Both the position numbers and the translations under genes were made by a program. From Rhodanobacter sp. (GTDB taxonomy: Bacteria; Pseudomonadota; Gammaproteobacteria; Xanthomonadales; Rhodanobacteraceae): a stretch of DNA of 64,000 nucleotides. Below are positions 32,796 through 51,167 of this stretch, one piece after another. The notes under the pieces were generated by a model. That model searched no databases. It had not been told where the DNA came from and was given only the letters and a program-made list of their open reading frames with translations. The DNA is taken from contig SCRM01000010.1 of assembly GCA_004298045.1 (NCBI GenBank), positions 248,001 through 312,000 on the forward strand. The letters run 5' to 3'. Position 1 is the first letter of the stretch, and each line of letters opens with the position of its first letter.

Positions 32796-33581
32796 TCAAG
32801 CCTCGCCGCTGCCACGCGCCCAGCGCCGATGCAGCCATTGCGCGGCGCCGTCGAGCAGAAAGCCGAGCGCACCAATCAGAAGGATGGCCGCCATCAGCTC
32901 GGAATAGGCGAGGCGGTCGCGGGTATCCAGGATGAAATAGCCGAGGCCGGAGCTCACGCCGAGCATTTCGCACGGGATCAGCAAGATCCAGATCATGCCG
33001 ATCGCGACCCGCACACCGGTCAGCACGTGGCCGAGGATGCCGGGCACCACGATCCGCCGCAGCATCTCCCCGCGCGTGGCGCACAGGCTGCGGCCGAGCA
33101 GCAGCCAGCCGGGGTCGAGCTGGCGCACGCCGGCGGCGGTGTTGAGGATGATCGGCCACACCGCGGTGATGGTCAAAAGAAAATAGATCGGCATGTCGCC
33201 GATGCCGAACGCCATCACCGCGATCGGCATCCACGACAACGGCGAGATCATGCGCAGGAACTGGAATGGCGCGCTGGTGGCGGCATCCAGCGTGTGCGAG
33301 CTGCCGACCGCGACGCCGATCGGCACGCCGAGGATCAGCGCGGCGGCCAGGCTCACCAGCACCCGGCGCAGGCTGGTGAGCGTGTGGCGCGTGAGCTCGT
33401 TGTCGGCGATGAGTTCCCACAGGCTGCGGAACGCGTCGGCGGGCGCAAGGTTGGCGGCCATCGGGGTGTCGTCCCGGAGCAGACGGATACCGACCGACCA
33501 CAGGGCCAGCAGGGCGCCGAGGCCGATGAGGCCAAGCGCGATGCGGGTGCTGGAGCGGGGAACGGCGATACGGGCATTCAT
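32796..33581 (-). CDS. ABC transporter permease, nitrate/sulfonate/taurine type
   Basis: A 261-residue inner-membrane permease with about six helices and the EAA-like loop GEMLRRIVVPGILGHVLTGV that contacts the ATPase. It resembles SsuC/TauC/NrtB proteins. It is the last gene of the ahpD-like / acyl-CoA-dehydrogenase-like / ATPase / binding-protein / permease operon, 32 bp after the binding-protein gene. Substrate undetermined. Confidence 0.9.
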   Translation of the reverse strand: MNARIAVPRSSTRIALGLIGLGALLALWSVGIRLLRDDTPMAANLAPADAFRSLWELIADNELTRHTLTSLRRVLVSLAAALILGVPIGVAVGSSHTLDAATSAPFQFLRMISPLSWMPIAVMAFGIGDMPIYFLLTITAVWPIILNTAAGVRQLDPGWLLLGRSLCATRGEMLRRIVVPGILGHVLTGVRVAIGMIWILLIPCEMLGVSSGLGYFILDTRDRLAYSELMAAILLIGALGFLLDGAAQWLHRRWARGSGEA

Positions 33582-33613
33582 GGCAAAAACCGGTGGCGTG
33601 GTGCCGCGCAAAG

Positions 33614-34816
33614 TCAGGTGGTGATCTGTTCGGTGCGGGTGAAACCGTTCGGCACGCCGAACGCCTGCATGCCGCCCGCGGCCGCAATCGCCTGCTTGAC
33701 GAAGCGGTCGTCGACCAGGTCGCGCGCGGCAAACGCCGGGTCGAGTTTGGCGAGAAATTCGTTGCGGCCTTCGACGTAGGTGCCTTTGAGCATCTGCACC
33801 AGGGTTTCGGTGTAGCTCGGGTACGGATACGGCTGGAAATCGATGCGGTGCTCGTGCCACTCCGGGTGACGGATGGCGCCGCTCTTGACGTAGGCGGCAT
33901 CGTCCGACGCCGGCGGCGCCAGCACCTTGGCCAGCGCCGGGTAGCCGTGCGGGGTGTAGCGGCCGGGCGCATCCTTGGCCAAGAGGCGCGCGGTGTCGTC
34001 GCGGTGCGTGCGCGTCCACGCCTGCGCCTGCACGATGGCGTTGACCACTTTCTGCGTCCACTGCGGTCGCTGGTTCAGATCGCGCTCATGCATCTGCACC
34101 ACGCAGCAGGCGTGGTCCTTCCACACGTCGCCGGTGAAGCGCAGCACCTTGCCGACCCTCAAAATCTCGGCCAGCGCCACGAACGGCTCGGCCACGATGT
34201 AGCCCGAGATGCGCCCGCCGGCGAGCGCAGGCAGCATGTCCGAAGGCGCCATCACCGCCAGCTTCACCTGCTTCGGCCCCGGCTTGCCGCTGCCGATCGA
34301 GGTCAGGCCTTCGTGCTTCAAAAGGTGCTGCAGCACCACGTTGTGCACCGAGTACCAGAACGGAATGGCGAACGTGGTGCCGGCGATGTCGGCCAGCTTG
34401 GCCACGTTCGGCCTGACCGCGGCGGCGAGCGCCGAGCCGCACACGTGGTTCCACGCCACCACCTTGGAGGGCGACTTGGAGCCGTAGCGCGCCCACACCG
34501 TCATCGGCGAGAGCATGTGCACCACGTTCACCTGCCCGCTCAGGAACGCCTCGACGATCTCGGCCCAACTGCGGAACAGCCGCGGGCGTTCGACCTTGAG
34601 TCCCTGGGCCTGATACAGACCGCGCTCGTGCGCCACCAAGAGCGGCGTGGCATCGGTAATCGGCAGGTAGCCGATGCGCAGCGGCGCATCCGGCTCGGCC
34701 GCCACGGCACGCTCGAAGTTCTGCAGCAGCGGCAAGGCACCGGCGGCAGTGAACAGCGCCGACAGCTTGAGAAAGCGGCGGCGCGAGGAAACGGTATCCC
34801 CAGTATCGGCAGTCAT
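33614..34816 (-). CDS. ABC transporter substrate-binding protein, NrtA/SsuA-like, Tat-exported
   Basis: A 400-residue periplasmic protein. The N-terminus has a perfect twin-arginine motif, SRRRFLK, at about residues 11-17, followed by a hydrophobic stretch to AVAAEP. Then IGYLPITDATPLLVAHERGLY, the opening of NMT1/NrtA-like binding proteins. The CC pair in HACCVVQMHERD is distinctive. Tat export suggests that it folds or binds a cofactor before export. Sulfonate, taurine, nitrate or another small anion are possible ligands; a met-box-like operator before the operon favours a sulfur compound (inference). Confidence 0.88.
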   Translation of the reverse strand: MTADTGDTVSSRRRFLKLSALFTAAGALPLLQNFERAVAAEPDAPLRIGYLPITDATPLLVAHERGLYQAQGLKVERPRLFRSWAEIVEAFLSGQVNVVHMLSPMTVWARYGSKSPSKVVAWNHVCGSALAAAVRPNVAKLADIAGTTFAIPFWYSVHNVVLQHLLKHEGLTSIGSGKPGPKQVKLAVMAPSDMLPALAGGRISGYIVAEPFVALAEILRVGKVLRFTGDVWKDHACCVVQMHERDLNQRPQWTQKVVNAIVQAQAWTRTHRDDTARLLAKDAPGRYTPHGYPALAKVLAPPASDDAAYVKSGAIRHPEWHEHRIDFQPYPYPSYTETLVQMLKGTYVEGRNEFLAKLDPAFAARDLVDDRFVKQAIAAAGGMQAFGVPNGFTRTEQITT

Positions 34817-34848
34817 GGTGATCTCGATCGGAAAAGGGTAGCGCGGCG

Positions 34849-35673
34849 TCAGGCGACGGCGCGTTCGGCCGCGGCCGGCGCGTCCGTGCGCGCGGCGCGC
34901 AGCGCCTGCACGATGTCCACCCGCATGCGCGTCAGCTCGCCGGACACCGCGTCGCGCGGCTGCGCGGCGGCGAGCGTCCATTCGCCGAGCAGTTCAGCCG
35001 GCACGCCACCGAGCAGCAGGATGCGGTCGGCGAGCAGCAAGGCCTCGTCGATGTCGTGGGTGACCAGCACCGCTGCAGTCTGGCTGCGCTTGGCCAGCAC
35101 GAGCAGCAGTTGCTGCATCTCGCCGCGGGTGATCTCGTCCAGCGCGCTGAAGGGTTCGTCCAGCAGCAGCAGCTCCGGCCGACGCACCAGGCTGCGCGCG
35201 AGCGCCACGCGCTGCGCCATGCCGCCCGAAAGCTCGGACGGATAGCGCCCGAGCGCCGAAGTCAGGCCAACCTCGTCGATCAAGGCATGCACGCGGCGAC
35301 GACGCTCATTGCGGTCCAGCACCGGCTGGCGCGCAAAATCCAGGCCGAAACCGACGTTCTCTTCGAGTGTCAGCCACGGCAACAGGCAGGGGTCCTGGAA
35401 CATCAGGCTCACGCGCGGATGGGTGTCGTGCAGCACTTCGCCGCGCACGCGCACGCTGCCGCGGTCAGGCTTCTGCAAGCCGCCGAGCACGCGCAGGAGC
35501 GAGGATTTGCCGGCGCCACTCGGGCCGAGCACGGCGACGATCTCCCCCGCGCGCAGCTGCAACGAGAAATCGCGCAGCACCGGGTACCGCACCTGGCCGT
35601 GGCGGCCGTAGCTCAGGGCGATGTGGCTGGCATCGAGAAGGGCCGGATGTAGCGGCGTGGGTTGGTCGGTCAT
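34849..35673 (-). CDS. ABC transporter ATP-binding protein, nitrate/sulfonate type
   Basis: A 274-residue ATPase with Walker A GPSGAGKSS, Q-loop MFQDPCLLPW, signature LSGGMAQR, Walker B LLLLDEPFSALD and switch His in VTHDIDEALLL. The PCLLPW motif is typical of the SsuB/TauB/NrtD group. The ATG at 35673 gives the normal N-terminus. It sits 32 bp before the binding-protein gene. Confidence 0.93.
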   Translation of the reverse strand: MTDQPTPLHPALLDASHIALSYGRHGQVRYPVLRDFSLQLRAGEIVAVLGPSGAGKSSLLRVLGGLQKPDRGSVRVRGEVLHDTHPRVSLMFQDPCLLPWLTLEENVGFGLDFARQPVLDRNERRRRVHALIDEVGLTSALGRYPSELSGGMAQRVALARSLVRRPELLLLDEPFSALDEITRGEMQQLLLVLAKRSQTAAVLVTHDIDEALLLADRILLLGGVPAELLGEWTLAAAQPRDAVSGELTRMRVDIVQALRAARTDAPAAAERAVA

Positions 35674-35774
35674 GGCGGTGAAGCTCGCAGCCGGAGAGAG
35701 GGGTTCGTCCTTGCGTACAGCCGTGTCAGGGCCACACCCTGCGTCCGACTTCCATGCGTCGACCGCACGCACCG

Positions 35775-36887
35775 TCACGCCGCCTCGGCGCGTGACGCCG
35801 CCTGCTCAAGGTCATGGATCTCCTTGCGCAGATGCTTGAGTGCCGGAGTGACAATGGCGACGAACACCGCTTCGCGCAGCAGACGCTGCGCCGCGTGGCG
35901 GCGAATGTAGCCGCGTGCGCCGGCATGCAGCACCGCCGCGTTGCCAGCGCGCAGCGCCAGCTCCGAAGCCTCCGCGCGCAGGCGCAACACCGGCAGCAGC
36001 GCGGCCTTGCCCACTTGCGCCTGGGCGGCCAACAACGCCGTCTCGGCCACCAACACGTCGCGGGCAGCCTGCAGATCGTCTTCCTGCACGTCGAGATAGG
36101 CGTTGACGTCGTTCTGTCCACCGCCGTGTTCGTGCAGCACCTTGATGCAGGCGTCGACCACGCCGAGGCCCATGCCAACCTGGCCCAGCAGAAAACCCGG
36201 CTTGATGCGCGCGATGAAGGCGTCGAACTGCTCCGGATGCGCCAGCACCTGGTCGGCGGCGACCCGCACCTGCTTGAAGCGCAGGCTGAGCGTGCGCGAG
36301 CCCTCCATGCCGGAAAACTCCGGGCACGGATGATTGGCGTAGCCGGGCGTGCCGGTTTCCACCGCAAACATCGCGTAGCCGCCGGTATCCACCGCGGCGG
36401 CCACGATCACCAGATGGTGCGCGGCCAGGTTCGACACCCACGGCAACACGCCGTTCAGCACGTAGCCGTCGCCTTCGCGGCGGGCGCTCAAGCGGATCTT
36501 CTCGATGCCGGCAAGGTGCTTCATGGTGTTGGACATGCCGGTGCCGGCCAGCAGCTCGCCGCGCACCACGGCATCGAGATAGCGCGCGCGCGTTGCCGGC
36601 ACCGTCGCGTGGCGCAAGTACCACGCGCAGGTGAACTGGCACCACACCGCAAACGCCGCCGCACCGGATACCGCGCCCACGTGCGCAGCCACCGTCAGCA
36701 CGTGGCGCAGATCGAGCGGATGGTGCTCGTCGGCCACCAGGCTGGCGCCGTAACCACCCAGCGCACCGAGGTGACGCAGGAACGCCTCCGGGTAGACGCC
36801 GTCGACGTCGATATCGACCGCCAGCGGCGCCAACTCGGCGTGCACCGCGGCGTCGATGGCCTCAAGGGATGGCAAGGAAGCGTTCAC
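35775..36887 (-). CDS. Acyl-CoA-dehydrogenase-fold flavoprotein of an ABC-transporter operon
   Basis: A 370-residue protein with the three-part acyl-CoA dehydrogenase layout: helical N-domain, middle beta domain (LAGTGMSNTMKHLAGIEKIR and GYVLNGVLPWVSNLAAHH) and helical C-domain ending in a coiled coil. No clear catalytic Glu can be assigned, and members next to sulfonate/sulfur transporters (SfnB/DszC-like) are FMN monooxygenases, so a monooxygenase role on the imported compound is a reasonable alternative. The start is GTG at 36887, 17 bp after the ahpD-like stop and preceded by GAGG; an earlier ATG (36968) would overlap that gene by 64 bp. Confidence 0.8.
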   Translation of the reverse strand: MNASLPSLEAIDAAVHAELAPLAVDIDVDGVYPEAFLRHLGALGGYGASLVADEHHPLDLRHVLTVAAHVGAVSGAAAFAVWCQFTCAWYLRHATVPATRARYLDAVVRGELLAGTGMSNTMKHLAGIEKIRLSARREGDGYVLNGVLPWVSNLAAHHLVIVAAAVDTGGYAMFAVETGTPGYANHPCPEFSGMEGSRTLSLRFKQVRVAADQVLAHPEQFDAFIARIKPGFLLGQVGMGLGVVDACIKVLHEHGGGQNDVNAYLDVQEDDLQAARDVLVAETALLAAQAQVGKAALLPVLRLRAEASELALRAGNAAVLHAGARGYIRRHAAQRLLREAVFVAIVTPALKHLRKEIHDLEQAASRAEAA

Positions 36888-36904
36888 GGCAGGCCTCGCG
36901 GGAC

Positions 36905-37447
36905 TCAGGCGTACGCCTGCAGTTCGGGATTGATCGGCGTGCGGGCCAGGTTGTTGCTGTAGTTGCACAAGGTGGCGAGGCTCACGCCCAGCACCACTTC
37001 GAGCGCATTGCCTTGGCTGTAGCCGGCGGCCAGGAACTGCTTGAGTTCGTCATCGGTGACGCCGCCCTTGTGCTCGATCACGGCCAGCGTGAAGCGCGCC
37101 AGCGCATTGAGTTTGGAGTCTTCCAGCGCATGCGTGTGGCGCAGCGCATCGACCAGCTCGGCCGGCAGGTTGAGCTTGTTGCGCGCGATCTTGGTATGCC
37201 CGGCTACGCAGAACCCGCAACCGTTGCGGCTGGCGGCGGTGATCTGGATGACCTCGCGCTCGGTCGCGGTGAGGCCGTTGCGCGCATTGATCGCGCTCAC
37301 GGTCTGGTAGGTCTCGAGCGCAGTCGGTGCGTTTGCCAGCACCCCGAGCAGATTGGGCACGAACCCGCTGGCCTTGCGTGCCGATTCAAGACGTGGGCGC
37401 GCCTCGGCCGGTGCACTGTCGGGGGTCTGGATGGCGATGCGACTCAT
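36905..37447 (-). CDS. AhpD-like carboxymuconolactone-decarboxylase-family protein
   Basis: A 180-residue all-helical protein with the redox motif Cys77-Gly-Phe-Cys80-x3-His84 (NGCGFCVAGH), the AhpD core peroxidase signature. It probably acts as a thiol peroxidase or disulfide shuttle. The ATG at 37447 is used; two tandem AGACGTCC boxes lie 18-33 bp upstream. First gene of the ABC-transporter operon, so it likely protects or serves the flavoprotein chemistry encoded next. Confidence 0.9.
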   Translation of the reverse strand: MSRIAIQTPDSAPAEARPRLESARKASGFVPNLLGVLANAPTALETYQTVSAINARNGLTATEREVIQITAASRNGCGFCVAGHTKIARNKLNLPAELVDALRHTHALEDSKLNALARFTLAVIEHKGGVTDDELKQFLAAGYSQGNALEVVLGVSLATLCNYSNNLARTPINPELQAYA

Positions 37448-37464
37448 GGTAAGGACCTTCATTT

Positions 37465-37480
37465 GGACGTCTGGACGTCT
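37465..37480 (-). promoter_or_regulatory. Tandem met-box-like octamers before the ahpD-like operon
   Basis: On the plus strand GGACGTCT occurs twice with no spacer (37465-37472, 37473-37480); on the minus strand this reads AGACGTCC AGACGTCC, each 7/8 to the enteric MetJ box AGACGTCT. Abutting 8-bp copies are how MetJ dimers bind. Confidence 0.65.
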
Positions 37481-37629
37481 GCGCACGTTACTTATTGGCG
37501 GCGTGCGGCAACAAAGGACGCTTGCGCATTCCGATATAACCAGAACGCATGTTTGCCAAACCGGATCGCCTGACCATGGTCATTGACGCGCGCTCGTCCG
37601 ACTCACTACCGTTGGCGTCAATTGCTTGC

Positions 37630-37653
37630 ATCTTTCTATTCGAATCGAAAGAT
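37630..37653 (+). promoter_or_regulatory. 24-bp near-palindrome upstream of metE
   Basis: ATCTTTC and GAAAGAT flank a central TTCGAA; only one symmetric pair of bases breaks the 24-bp palindrome. A related sequence occurs in front of metK (41720-41743; 18 of 24 positions identical). It overlaps a possible metE promoter (TTGCAT at 37626). Confidence 0.6.
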
Positions 37654-37781
37654 ATACGACAGAAAACCGCGATCGGTCCGGCCCTGCCAACCGGCTCACC
37701 AGCGGAACAACGACGGCAAATGCACCCGCTGGCACACCGCCGCCTTTGGTTCGCCACACCATTGCAACGAGGAATCAACCG

Positions 37782-40067
37782 ATGTCTACCGTCACCTATG
37801 CAGGCTTCCCGCGCATCGGACTCAAGCGCGAGCTCAAGCGCGCGCTGGAAGCCCACTGGAGCGGCGAGTTGGATGCCGCCAGCCTGCTGGAAACCGCACG
37901 CACACTGCGCGCCCGCCACTGGCAACTTGGCCGCGATGCCGGCGCCGGCGTGGTGCCCAGCAATGATTTCAGCCTGTACGACCACGTGCTCGACACCGCG
38001 GTGCTGTTCGACGCCATCCCGGCGCGCTACCGCCCGGTGTTTGCGAAGGATCCGCTCGCCGGCTACTTCGCCATGGCGCGCGGCCACAAGCGCGATGGCT
38101 TCGACCTGCACGCGCTGGAAATGACCAAGTGGTTCGACACCAACTACCACTACCTGGTGCCGGAGCTCGAGGCCAGGCAGAAGTTCCGGCTGGTGGGCGA
38201 CAAGCCGGTCGCGGAGTTTCTCGAAGCCCGGGCGCTCGGCCACCGCGCGCGGCCGGTGCTGGTCGGTCCGGTCACCTTCCTGCTGCTGTCCAAGACAGTG
38301 GACGACAGCGACCGCCTCGCCCTGCTCGATGCGCTGCTGCCCGCCTACGCCGAACTGCTGCAGAAGCTGGCGGCTGCCGGCGCCGACTGGGTGCAACTGG
38401 ATGAACCCTGCCTGGTGCTCGACCTGGACGCCGCGACGCACGCCGCCTACCGCAAGGCCTATGCCGCGCTGGCGGCCGCGGGCGGACCGAAGATCCTGCT
38501 GGCCACGTATTTCGGCGCGCTCGGCGACAACCTTGCGCTGGCCGCGAGCCTGCCGGTGGCCGGCCTGCACGTGGATCTCGTGCGTGCGCCGCAGCAGCTC
38601 GACACCGTGCTCGCCGCGCTGCCCGCCGACCGCGTGCTCAGCGCCGGCGTGATCGACGGCCGCAACGTGTGGCGCAGCCGGCCGAACGCGGTGCTGGCGC
38701 GCCTGCACCAGGCGCAGGATCGGGTCGGCAGCGAACAGCTCTGGATCGCGCCCTCGTGCTCGCTGCTGCATGTGCCGATCGACATCGAGGCGGAAACCGC
38801 GCTCGATCCCACCCGCCGCGCGACGATGGCATTTGCCCGGCAGAAGCTCGAAGAGCTGCGCGTCTACGCCGATGCACTCGCCGGCCAGACCGAAGCCGCC
38901 GCCGCGCTCCAGGCGCAGCAGACCCTGCTCGACCACCAGGCCGAACACGTCGGCGTGAAAAACCCGGCGGTGCGCGCCCGCCTGCATGCGATCAGCCCGC
39001 AGATGGCGCTGCGCCGCTCGCCTTACGCTACCCGCCGCGTGGCGCAGGCCGAAGCACTCACGCTGCCGCCGCTGCCCACCACCACCATCGGCTCGTTCCC
39101 GCAGACCGAGGAGGTGCGCAAGGCGCGCGCCGCGCACCGCGCCGGCAAGCTCGACGACGCCAGCTACGAGGCCCGCATCAAGGCCGAGGTGGAGCGCGTG
39201 ATCCGCTTCCAGGAGCGCATCGGGCTGGACGTGCTGGTGCACGGCGAGCCGGAGCGCAACGACATGGTGGAGTATTTCGGCGAGCAGCTCGACGGGTTCC
39301 TGTTCACCAAGCTCGGCTGGGTGCAAAGCTACGGTTCGCGCTGCGTGAAGCCGCCGGTGATCTGGGGCGACGTCGCGCGCCCGCAGCCGATGACCGTGAC
39401 CTGGGCCACCTACGCGCAATCGCTCACACCGAAGCCGGTGAAGGGCATGCTCACCGGCCCGGTAACCATGCTGCAGTGGTCGTTCGTGCGCGACGACCTG
39501 CCGCGCGAAACCGTGTGCCACGAAATCGCGCTCGCGCTGCGCGACGAAGTGCACGACCTCGAAGCGGCCGGCATCCAGGTGATCCAGATCGACGAGCCGG
39601 CGTTCCGCGAAGGGCTGCCGCTGCGGCGCGCCGAGTGGCCGGCATATCTCGCCTGGGCAGTGGAGTGCTTCCGCATCACCGCTGGCGGCGTGCGCGACAC
39701 CACGCAGATCCACACCCACATGTGCTACTCGGAGTTCAACGACATCATCGAGGCGGTGGCCGCGATGGACGCCGACGTGATCTCGATCGAGACCAGCCGC
39801 TCGCGGATGGAACTGCTGGACGCCTTCGTGCGCTTCAAGTACCCGAACGGGATCGGCCCCGGCGTGTACGACATCCACTCGCCGCGCGTGCCAGCCAAGG
39901 CCGAGATGACCGAACTGGTGCACAAGGCGCTCAAGGTGCTGCGCCCCGACCAGCTGTGGATCAACCCCGACTGCGGGCTGAAGACCCGGCGCTGGGCCGA
40001 GGTGGAGCCGGCACTCGAACACATGGCGGCCAGTGCGCGCGAGTTGCGCGGCGAAATCACTGTGTAA
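37782..40067 (+). CDS. metE: Cobalamin-independent methionine synthase
   Basis: Transfers a methyl group from 5-methyl-tetrahydrofolate to homocysteine. The 761-residue protein has both barrel domains: it starts VTYAGFPRIGLKRELKRALE and the C-terminal half carries the zinc ligands His646, Cys648 (HTHMCYSEFND), Glu670 and Cys731 (NPDCGLKT), offset by five from E. coli MetE. The ATG at 37782 has GAGGA upstream. It sits with metK, ahcY and metF in a 17-kb stretch and is divergent from the ahpD-like/ABC operon across a region with shared regulatory sites. Confidence 0.98.
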   Translation: MSTVTYAGFPRIGLKRELKRALEAHWSGELDAASLLETARTLRARHWQLGRDAGAGVVPSNDFSLYDHVLDTAVLFDAIPARYRPVFAKDPLAGYFAMARGHKRDGFDLHALEMTKWFDTNYHYLVPELEARQKFRLVGDKPVAEFLEARALGHRARPVLVGPVTFLLLSKTVDDSDRLALLDALLPAYAELLQKLAAAGADWVQLDEPCLVLDLDAATHAAYRKAYAALAAAGGPKILLATYFGALGDNLALAASLPVAGLHVDLVRAPQQLDTVLAALPADRVLSAGVIDGRNVWRSRPNAVLARLHQAQDRVGSEQLWIAPSCSLLHVPIDIEAETALDPTRRATMAFARQKLEELRVYADALAGQTEAAAALQAQQTLLDHQAEHVGVKNPAVRARLHAISPQMALRRSPYATRRVAQAEALTLPPLPTTTIGSFPQTEEVRKARAAHRAGKLDDASYEARIKAEVERVIRFQERIGLDVLVHGEPERNDMVEYFGEQLDGFLFTKLGWVQSYGSRCVKPPVIWGDVARPQPMTVTWATYAQSLTPKPVKGMLTGPVTMLQWSFVRDDLPRETVCHEIALALRDEVHDLEAAGIQVIQIDEPAFREGLPLRRAEWPAYLAWAVECFRITAGGVRDTTQIHTHMCYSEFNDIIEAVAAMDADVISIETSRSRMELLDAFVRFKYPNGIGPGVYDIHSPRVPAKAEMTELVHKALKVLRPDQLWINPDCGLKTRRWAEVEPALEHMAASARELRGEITV

Positions 40068-41640: not shown

Positions 41641-41656
41641 AGACGTCCATCCGTCC
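41641..41656 (+). promoter_or_regulatory. Met-box-like octamers upstream of metK
   Basis: AGACGTCC (41641-41648, 7/8 to AGACGTCT) is followed directly by ATCCGTCC (5/8). They lie about 55-70 bp before the predicted metK start site. Confidence 0.5.
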
Positions 41657-41753: not shown

Positions 41754-42953
41754 ATGAGCAACTCCCTGTTCACCTCCGAATCGGTTTCCGAAGGCCATCC
41801 GGACAAGGTTGCCGACCAGATTTCCGACGCCGTGCTGGACGCGATCATCGCGCAGGATCCGCGCGCCCGCGTCGCCTGCGAGACCATGGTCAAGACCGGC
41901 GTGGCGATCGTCGCCGGCGAGATCACCACCAATGCGTGGATCGACCTTGAGGCCATCACCCGCAAGGTGATCCTGGACATCGGCTACAACTCGTCCGACG
42001 TCGGCTTCGACGGCGCCACCTGCGGCGTGATCAACCTGATCGGCAAGCAGTCGCCCAACATCAACCAGGGCGTGGACCGCAAGAAGCCGGAGGAACAGGG
42101 TGCTGGCGACCAGGGCCTGATGTTCGGCTACGCGACCAACGAAACCCAGGACTACATGCCGGCGGCGATCTACTACTCGCACCGGCTGGTCGAGCGCCAG
42201 GCCAAGGTGCGCAAGCAGAAGAACTCGCCGCTGCCGTGGCTGCGCCCGGACGCGAAGAGCCAGGTCACGCTGCGCTACGAGAACGGCGTCGCCACCGCCA
42301 TCGACGCGGTCGTCCTCAGCACCCAGCACGCGCCGGGCGTCAAGCAGAAGGACCTGATCGAAGCCGTGCGCGAGCACATCATCAAGCCGGTGCTGCCGGC
42401 CAAGCTCCTGCACAAGGGCACCAAGTTCCACATCAACCCGACCGGCCGGTTTGAGATCGGCGGTCCGGTGGGCGACTGCGGCCTGACCGGCCGCAAGATC
42501 ATCGTCGACACCTACGGCGGCTGGGCCCGGCATGGCGGTGGCGCGTTCAGCGGCAAGGATCCGTCCAAGGTCGACCGTTCGGCCGCCTACGCCGCGCGCT
42601 ACGTGGCCAAGAACATCGTGGCCGCCGGCATCGCCGACCGCTGCGAGGTGCAGGTGAGCTACGCCATCGGCGTGGCCGAGCCGACCTCGATCTCGGTCAC
42701 CACCTTCGGCACCGGCAAGATCAGCGACGACAAGATCGAACGGCTGATCCGCAAGCACTTCGACCTGCGGCCCTACGGCATCCTCAAGATGCTTGACCTG
42801 ATCCACCCGATCTACCAGCGCACCGCCAGCTACGGCCACTTCGGCCGCAAGCCGGTACAGGTCAAGGGTGCCGACGGCAGCGTGTTCACCGCGTTCTCGT
42901 GGGAGAACACGGACAAGGCCGAAGCGCTGCGCGCGGACGCCAAGCTCAAGTAA
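41754..42953 (+). CDS. metK: S-adenosylmethionine synthetase
   Basis: Makes SAM from methionine and ATP. The 399-residue protein begins [20 protein letters not shown] and has [16 protein letters not shown], the P-loop-like [19 protein letters not shown] and the C-terminal [13 protein letters not shown] segments. Full length, single start. Upstream are a met-box-like pair, an extended -10 and a 24-bp palindrome adjacent to the SD. A terminator follows at 42980. Confidence 0.99.
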
Positions 42954-51004: not shown

Positions 51005-51013
51005 TTGCAGCTC

Positions 51014-51087
51014 CCGTCGAGGGGCGCTGCGACCACGGCAATCGAACCGTGGCCAGGCTCGGCGGAACCTGACTGCAACGGCGCCCG
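51014..51087 (+). promoter_or_regulatory. S-adenosylhomocysteine (SAH) riboswitch
   Basis: Stem P1 pairs CCGTCGAG (51014-51021) with CTCGGCGG (51058-51065); P2 pairs CCACGG (51033-51038) with CCGTGG (51047-51052); the pseudoknot pairs GGGCGC (51022-51027) with GCGCCC (51081-51086). The conserved core GAGGGGCGCTGC, CCAGGCTCGG and AACGGCGCCC matches the SAH-riboswitch consensus. These elements turn on ahcY when SAH accumulates. Confidence 0.92.
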
Positions 51088-51167
51088 GTTGGCTGCAATG
51101 CACCTGTCTGACAGGCGCGGCGCGGCACCGGCCACACGGCCGGCCCCCTACAAGAACCGGAGTACGC

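Follow-up and report, generated by a model that had tools for sequence, protein, structure and literature searches.

What is the function of a five-gene cluster that diverges from the methionine synthase gene metE in a Rhodanobacter sp., and is it controlled by the methionine repressor MetJ? The cluster lies in a stretch of 64,000 nucleotides (assembly GCA_004298045.1, contig SCRM01000010.1, positions 248,001 to 312,000 of the forward strand), which at its full length is called the window here. Its genes encode, in order, an AhpD-like protein, a flavoprotein with the acyl-CoA dehydrogenase fold, and the ATPase, substrate-binding protein and permease of an ATP-binding cassette (ABC) importer. 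The reading that we tentatively favor, with a confidence just short of an even chance, is that this is an accessory operon, MetJ-controlled in this organism, by which a small sulfur-bearing anion would be imported and desulfurated by redox chemistry for sulfur acquisition. It builds on features that are observed directly, namely the gene set and its order, its recurrence in other genomes, the presence of both a MET box and a metJ gene, the class to which the modeled structure of the binding protein belongs and the loss of both bases known from the dehydrogenases. A methionine-controlled importer and flavoprotein is preferred because it best fits the box, its position, the neighboring genes and the importer class.

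All five open reading frames (ORFs) are intact and collinear on the minus strand, with the Pfam domains CMD, Acyl-CoA_dh_N, ABC_tran, NMT1_2 and BPD_transp_1, which bears out the gene calls, coordinates and collinearity given in a first-pass annotation of this DNA. The tandem met-box-like site that it had placed by the operon start is also there. The MET box GGACGTCTGGACGTCT at 37465-37480 lies 17 bp from the ATG of the AhpD gene (37447) and 317 bp from that of metE (37782), and it consists of tandem 8-bp units of the AGACGTCT type with an exact core and 14 of 16 positions matched overall. A loose count of such sites is not significant, as the window holds two box matches at up to three mismatches against a mean of 0.59 in shuffled sequence, and 13 of 100 shuffles reach two. 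In the whole 3.26-Mb genome, the exact GACGTCNRGACGTC occurs at five sites, where about 0.3 are expected from the composition of the window (67.7% G+C), and with up to one mismatch there are 17 matches per strand versus 5 and 8 for a reversed control pattern. Of the five exact sites, one is that of the operon, two precede metJ and a porin gene, respectively, a fourth falls within an ORF, and the fifth is next to an ORF read as a transposase. The genome encodes MetJ (PF01340, 119 bits against a cut-off of 25), and boxes of MetJ type are found at metJ, metE and, in a weaker form, metK. With MetJ encoded and a tandem box near its start, the operon is, on sequence grounds, a predicted member of the MetJ regulon.

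Does the box belong to the operon or to metE? Among 59 genomes of the family that were searched, 27 had a close metE, and the leaders of 23 could be anchored, the other four being dropped because the start motif was not found. A box of at least 13 of 16 positions precedes metE in 9 of the 23 leaders (8 of 22 without the window's own genome), whereas shuffled leaders averaged 0.04 of 23 and never exceeded 1 in 200 rounds. A MET box upstream of metE is thus older than the operon. A second landmark, the palindrome ATCTTTCNATTCGAATNGAAAGAT, is matched at 18 or more of 24 positions in 15 of the 23 leaders, a score for which there is no shuffled baseline, and occurs once in the own genome at up to three mismatches. 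The palindrome reported for SamR is also 24 bp long, but its ATC and GAT ends are 10 bp apart versus 18 bp here, and because of this difference in spacing we do not equate it with the site of SamR. Six operon-free leaders contain both a box (at least 12 of 16) and the palindrome (at least 18 of 24), and the starts of the two are separated by 40-41 bp in five of these leaders and by 87 bp in the sixth. The corresponding distance in operon carriers is 165 bp in the window and 178 and 191 bp in R. fulvus and Rhodanobacter sp. Root480, in which the operon lies beside metE as in the window and a box of 14/16 stands 18 bp from AhpD. Because the box keeps a constant 17-18 bp to AhpD and is shifted relative to the palindrome, it seems to serve the operon specifically, or at least jointly with metE, and the explanation that it is merely the ancestral box of metE in its old place is weakened by the palindrome spacing. 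The proposal that the operon shares its control with methionine synthesis is thus plausible, given the MetJ gene, a box equally close in two further Rhodanobacter and methionine-synthase neighbors elsewhere.

A separate observation on the same leaders concerns the cobalamin riboswitch, which precedes metE in all nine operon-free relatives tested (of 26) with 83-116 bits. In the two Rhodanobacter that carry the operon its score is 34-36 bits, and in the window's metE leader (37480-37782) it stays below the gathering score. The decay of this riboswitch coincides with the presence of the operon.

MetJ was detected in 96 of 299 genomes of the order Xanthomonadales, 76 of which belong to the family of the window, and no genome of this family seems to be without it among the match-less genomes listed (183 further rows lie outside that list). 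In the passages of PMC4239095 (Leyn 2014) used here, four Xanthomonadales genomes are listed with SamR, MetR and the S-adenosylhomocysteine (SAH) riboswitch and not with MetJ, which is listed for other gammaproteobacteria; in that portion of its main text the terms 'acyl-CoA dehydrogenase' and 'sulfonate' do not appear. A putative methionine repressor MetJ is named in one Rhodanobacter strain in a passage of PMC12146267 (2025), so MetJ in this group has already been mentioned in the literature. The present findings also suggest that an accessory operon has come under MetJ in the Xanthomonadales, whose four reconstructed genomes have no MetJ entry in those passages.

One scan with an 11-sequence alignment returned 517 related stretches, of which the best 80 loci were fetched, and the counts of the versions refer to these 80. 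The full order of AhpD, flavoprotein, optional rubredoxin, ATPase, binding protein and permease is present in 50 of them, 23 of which have a rubredoxin motif. AhpD is found in 61 loci (directly upstream of the flavoprotein in 59) and an OsmC gene in 15; no locus has both and four have neither. Ten of the 15 loci with OsmC also encode cyanase, which none of the 61 with AhpD does. The AhpD version is carried mostly by Alcaligenaceae, and also by Rhodanobacter, Polaromonas, Castellaniella, Neisseria and others, while carriers of the OsmC version include Thiomonas, Thioalkalivibrio and Azoarcus. Two Neisseria loci (L185, L187) keep AhpD, the flavoprotein and a rubredoxin-like ORF, with no ABC gene detected in about 9 kb downstream. 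Close to home the operon is rare, being present in 1 of 15 genomes of the genus and 2 of 45 of a related genus, and the remaining 14 and 43 have no close relative of the flavoprotein; neither do the other 298 of the 299 Xanthomonadales genomes, ten of which have only matches of 26-29% identity. Because the flavoprotein is rare within the order of the window, the operon is an accessory module, and, judged solely by its patchy distribution, it appears to be mobile. The check proposed in the first-pass annotation, conservation of gene order and box across the Xanthomonadales, has a mixed outcome. The box is present in all three carriers seen there. A five-gene order conserved across the Xanthomonadales is rejected, since nearly all genomes of the order lack a close relative of the flavoprotein and the gene order, although well conserved, is kept mostly outside it.

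In the flavoprotein, the Pfam domain Acyl-CoA_dh_N scores above its cut-off and the middle domain below. Its model, with a predicted local distance difference test (pLDDT) score of 90, aligns with Z scores of 36.9-40.7 over 341-360 residues to the acyl-CoA dehydrogenase family in the 50 structural rows shown, which establishes the fold. For the catalytic glutamate we used the positions that we take to be those of IVD and of SCAD/MCAD. The former corresponds to Gly231 in a hidden Markov model alignment to 4kto, while in the alignment to 1ivh the stretch is an insertion; the latter corresponds to Thr347, for which an alignment that stopped just before it was continued by hand. Among 100 relatives, Thr347 is kept in 98, Pro348 in 100 and Gly231 in 93. 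As a catalytic glutamate is found at neither of the two known base positions, the flavoprotein is unlikely to be a classical dehydrogenase. DszC and MsuC (group D flavin monooxygenases) were not among the 50 rows shown, a limited listing that excludes nothing. The monooxygenation originally proposed is not supported, given that the acyl-CoA dehydrogenase fold here lacks the known bases, that the operon encodes no flavin reductase and that nothing points to a monooxygenase in particular; the organosulfur substrate named with it had itself been inferred.

The first gene product scores 48.3 bits with TIGR00778 (cut-off 27.8), is above the cut-off for Pfam CMD and matches PDB entry 6e8l, named AhpD, with an E value of 2.7e-62. 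The AhpD family motif consists of a Glu, CxxC and a His; among 62 relatives the Glu is kept in 60 and the two Cys and the His in 61, the rest not being aligned there. The core domain together with the complete motif predicts membership in the AhpD family. In the OsmC partners that replace AhpD elsewhere, Trp, Phe, Tyr or Asn precedes Ser-Pro in 30 of 33 rows, the motif not being found in the other three, and the position before Ser-Pro is presumably the place of the second OsmC cysteine. These partners may not be ordinary peroxidases. A single cysteine is present in 10 of the 33 aligned stretches of OsmC genes (L104-L116 and other loci).

The N-terminus of the binding protein, ...SSRRRFLKLS..., carries the consensus motif of twin-arginine translocation (Tat). 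Its model has a pLDDT of 81, with residues 1-36 and 229-233 poorly modeled, the latter close to the His-Cys-Cys motif, and the closest structures are NrtA (Z 35.5) and CmpA (34.5-34.6), followed by 3un6 (30.7) and, at 24.6-25.8, the sulfonate and taurine binders. Of the NrtA/SsuA-like importer proposed earlier, the SsuA half is not supported, as the model is nearer to NrtA and CmpA; the protein also scores below the TIGR01728 cut-off. Of 90 relatives, 88 share His235, Cys237 and Cys238, and the alignment of the remaining two does not cover these positions; the three residues could form a metal or thiol site. The His-x-Cys-Cys motif (34103-34114, minus strand, residues 235-238) is common to the binding proteins of both operon versions. 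The best NCBIfam match of the permease is SaoP (145.1 of 295 bits), and the binding protein also matches SaoX (68.3 of 300 bits), which would be a distant link to another importer set.

Methionine-synthase genes recur near the gene set in the window, in two Rhodanobacter and in other lineages, a recurrence without a chance baseline. LysR-MesX-MesD stands directly upstream of the operon in an Alcaligenaceae metagenome-assembled genome (L165), MesD lies at a contig edge about 7.5 kb from it in a second Alcaligenaceae contig (L160), and an Acetobacter plasmid that carries the OsmC version has DUF1852 with a methionine synthase at a distance of about 6 kb. According to passages of PMC7857596, MesD requires MesX and oxygen. 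The companions of the OsmC version vary from locus to locus and comprise cyanase, sigma-54 regulators, DUF302, sulfurtransferases and rubredoxin, the last also as a fusion with its reductase. Seven plasmid records were examined, two of them without annotation in the stretch; cyanase and sigma-54 regulators occur with the OsmC version on two plasmids, and a sulfurtransferase gene is directly downstream of it in both Rhodobacterales plasmids examined. A flank tally covered 125 of 150 flank ORFs in 158 families, the 25 commonest of which were viewed; among the 25 ORFs not entered are short ones, several near-duplicates and metE of the two Rhodanobacter, so that these metE neighbors do not count in it. 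The commonest families were UvrD (8/125) and SecDF (6/125), and within this tally no family is common to the flanks of the AhpD version except as far as species kinship accounts for it. In 'Ca. Pelagibacter ubique', an osmC behind an S-adenosylmethionine riboswitch was the most induced transcript under sulfur limitation, according to passages of PMC5069961, and this response may be regarded as a parallel to the OsmC version. Family and protein searches found no cyanase in the window's own genome; in a control, the family search matched 1 of 14 genomes and missed E. coli, which has cynS, and the protein search had no control.

If the operon is indeed a methionine-controlled system for a sulfur-bearing anion, low S-adenosylmethionine would cause MetJ to leave the box, and the operon, perhaps together with metE, would be transcribed. 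The Tat-exported binding protein of NrtA/CmpA type would capture the anion and the ABC importer would carry it inside, where the flavoprotein, with rubredoxin as the electron carrier where it is encoded, would break or oxidize the bond to sulfur. AhpD, or OsmC in other lineages, could handle a thiol or peroxide by-product, and the freed sulfur would enter cysteine and methionine synthesis. A more specific candidate for the anion, which we consider quite unlikely to be correct, is thiocyanate, for which the operon would be a dedicated assimilation system that imports SCN- through its NrtA/CmpA-type importer with the His-x-Cys-Cys motif and splits it into usable sulfur and cyanate by means of the base-less flavoprotein with AhpD or OsmC and often rubredoxin. 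Thiocyanate is a candidate because one core found in sulfur-type and nitrogen-type settings fits a substrate that holds both elements. Where sulfur is wanted, the core would be under methionine control (MET box, metE and MesXD neighbors), and where nitrogen is wanted it would travel with cyanase and a sigma-54 regulator. Passages of PMC6504805 describe cyanase alone as an unreliable marker of thiocyanate use.

Several points weigh against the reading that we favor. MET boxes before metE are ancestral in the family, so the box could serve metE alone. Outside the Xanthomonadales the methionine link consists of neighbor genes alone, again with no chance baseline, and the 25 families most often met among the 125 flank proteins include no conspicuous sulfur gene family. 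Neither the window operon nor 27 of the 50 full-order loci have a rubredoxin, which is therefore not essential. The cyanase and sigma-54 regulators that accompany the OsmC version point to nitrogen no less than to sulfur. An operon that serves a sulfur-free anion (nitrate, nitrite, cyanate or a bicarbonate-like ion), with an accidental adjacency to metE and a box that belongs to metE, is a rival reading that we consider rather unlikely. Such a role would suit a binding-protein model nearest to NrtA and CmpA, the cyanase at two-thirds of the OsmC loci (10 of 15) and on two plasmids with their sigma-54 regulators, and the metE boxes in 8 of 22 operon-free leaders. However, it does not explain why all three carriers have the box 17-18 bp from AhpD, with 165-191 bp to the metE palindrome instead of 40-41 bp, why cyanase is found at none of the 61 AhpD loci, or why methionine-synthase genes are neighbors in other lineages.

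Uptake of an alkanesulfonate or sulfone together with a flavin monooxygenase, in the manner of the Ssu, Tau or Sfn systems, is how the first-pass annotation read the operon, and we regard it as improbable. The methionine context is compatible with it, as are matches to TIGR01728 (90.1 bits) and SfnB (28.8 bits), both below their cut-offs of 163.5 and 430.9, but the sulfonate and taurine binders are about 10 Z units below NrtA, the operon has neither an SsuD- or TauD-like oxygenase nor a flavin reductase, and the listed structural neighbors of the flavoprotein are of the acyl-CoA dehydrogenase family. Improbable as well, and if anything slightly more so, is a detoxification module for peroxide, cyanide or nitrile stress in which AhpD or OsmC is a peroxidase and the flavoprotein inactivates the toxic compound. 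The complete AhpD motif and the presence of the OsmC family and cyanase in the second version would agree with this, whereas a conserved importer is odd for such a role, the OsmC partners have no cysteine at the presumed second position in 30 of 33 rows, and the context is of the methionine type.

The features of the window that bear on the operon and its surroundings are collected in the table.

Table. Positions of the operon genes, regulatory sites and methionine-cycle features in the window
Feature	Position	Strand	Basis or remark
AhpD-like protein (CMD family), first gene; Glu65, Cys77-x-x-Cys80, His84	36905..37447	-	Pfam, TIGR00778, PDB match
Acyl-CoA-dehydrogenase-fold flavoprotein; the two known base positions are occupied by Gly231 and Thr347	35775..36887	-	Pfam, model, relatives
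Gap without a rubredoxin gene; a 54-aa rubredoxin gene at the same place in Rhodanobacter fulvus and Rhodanobacter sp. Root480	35674..35774	-	
ABC importer ATPase	34849..35673	-	best NCBIfam match ntrCD, below cut-off
Tat-type substrate-binding protein, NrtA/CmpA-like model, conserved His235-x-Cys237-Cys238	33614..34816	-	
ABC importer permease	32796..33581	-	Pfam, NCBIfam
Tandem MET box	37465..37480	+	14/16 to AGACGTCTAGACGTCT; 17 bp from AhpD ATG
24-bp palindrome ATCTTTCTATTCGAATCGAAAGAT	37630..37653	.	shared by many metE leaders of the family
metE, cobalamin-independent methionine synthase, divergent to the operon	37782..40067	+	
Weaker box-like site, 2 mismatches	41641..41656	-	97 bp upstream of metK
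metK	41754..42953	+	
SAH riboswitch	51013..51093	+	59.7 bits

With its SAH riboswitch, metE and metK, the window is a methionine-cycle neighborhood. One rubredoxin is encoded elsewhere in the genome, away from the window operon. Elsewhere in the genome, an exact tandem MET box (G000:C10:255485; L006, box at 1986) is found upstream of an alginate-export-type porin (PF13372, ORF to 3390 on the plus strand). Over its length this porin shares 30% identity with a porin within the related L115 cluster, and no similarity was detectable to the porin of the Acetobacter cluster; it is possibly an outer-membrane partner in the same regulon. Two further sites (G000:C19:55480, L019, and G000:C20:36423, L020) are a one-mismatch box between a LysR-type regulator and an ORF read as cysG-like, and a triple box, with a one-mismatch site among its units, ahead of a gene of the PALP family that was read as a cysteine synthase. 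MetJ may act on cysteine supply too in this genome.

In the literature searched, partly as abstracts or passages, we found no function for the gene set. Because it recurs widely (Rhodanobacter, Castellaniella, Neisseria) and no function was found, it is a good target for function assignment. If the operon does assimilate thiocyanate, it would add a route to the two that passages of PMC6504805 describe, one by hydrolysis and one by the cyanate pathway, which involves thiocyanate dehydrogenase. Such a route would be of interest for the treatment of mine water and for the life of Neisseria carriers in saliva. Saliva is rich in thiocyanate.

Compared with known systems, the importer proteins of the operon are below every cut-off of the importer families shown. 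NrtABCD and CmpABCD, for nitrate and bicarbonate, have the same binding-protein fold (Z 34.5-35.5 over 331-333 residues), and ntrCD is the best match of the ATPase and ntrB the second-best match of the permease. However, NrtA and CmpA are only 17-21% identical to the binding protein, and in the printed alignments of NrtA and the Cmp regulatory domains the Cys-Cys pair is absent and the His kept. SsuABC and TauABC belong to the same superfamily, but the binding protein scores 90.1 bits against the cut-off of 163.5 for the SsuA family, the Z scores are 24.6-25.8, and the operon is without a sulfonate oxygenase. SfnB (TIGR04022) shares the acyl-CoA dehydrogenase fold with the flavoprotein, which reaches only 28.8 of the 430.9 bits required. 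The 3-sulfinopropionyl-CoA desulfinase 5ahs has this fold too (Z 37.4), but the score is 32.3 of 600 bits, and the operon has no CoA ligase. The best PDB sequence match of the binding protein is the S. aureus protein 3un6, for which we know of no assigned function; its PDB title gives zinc as bound, it is shorter than the binding protein described here, and it keeps the Cys-Cys pair but not the His.

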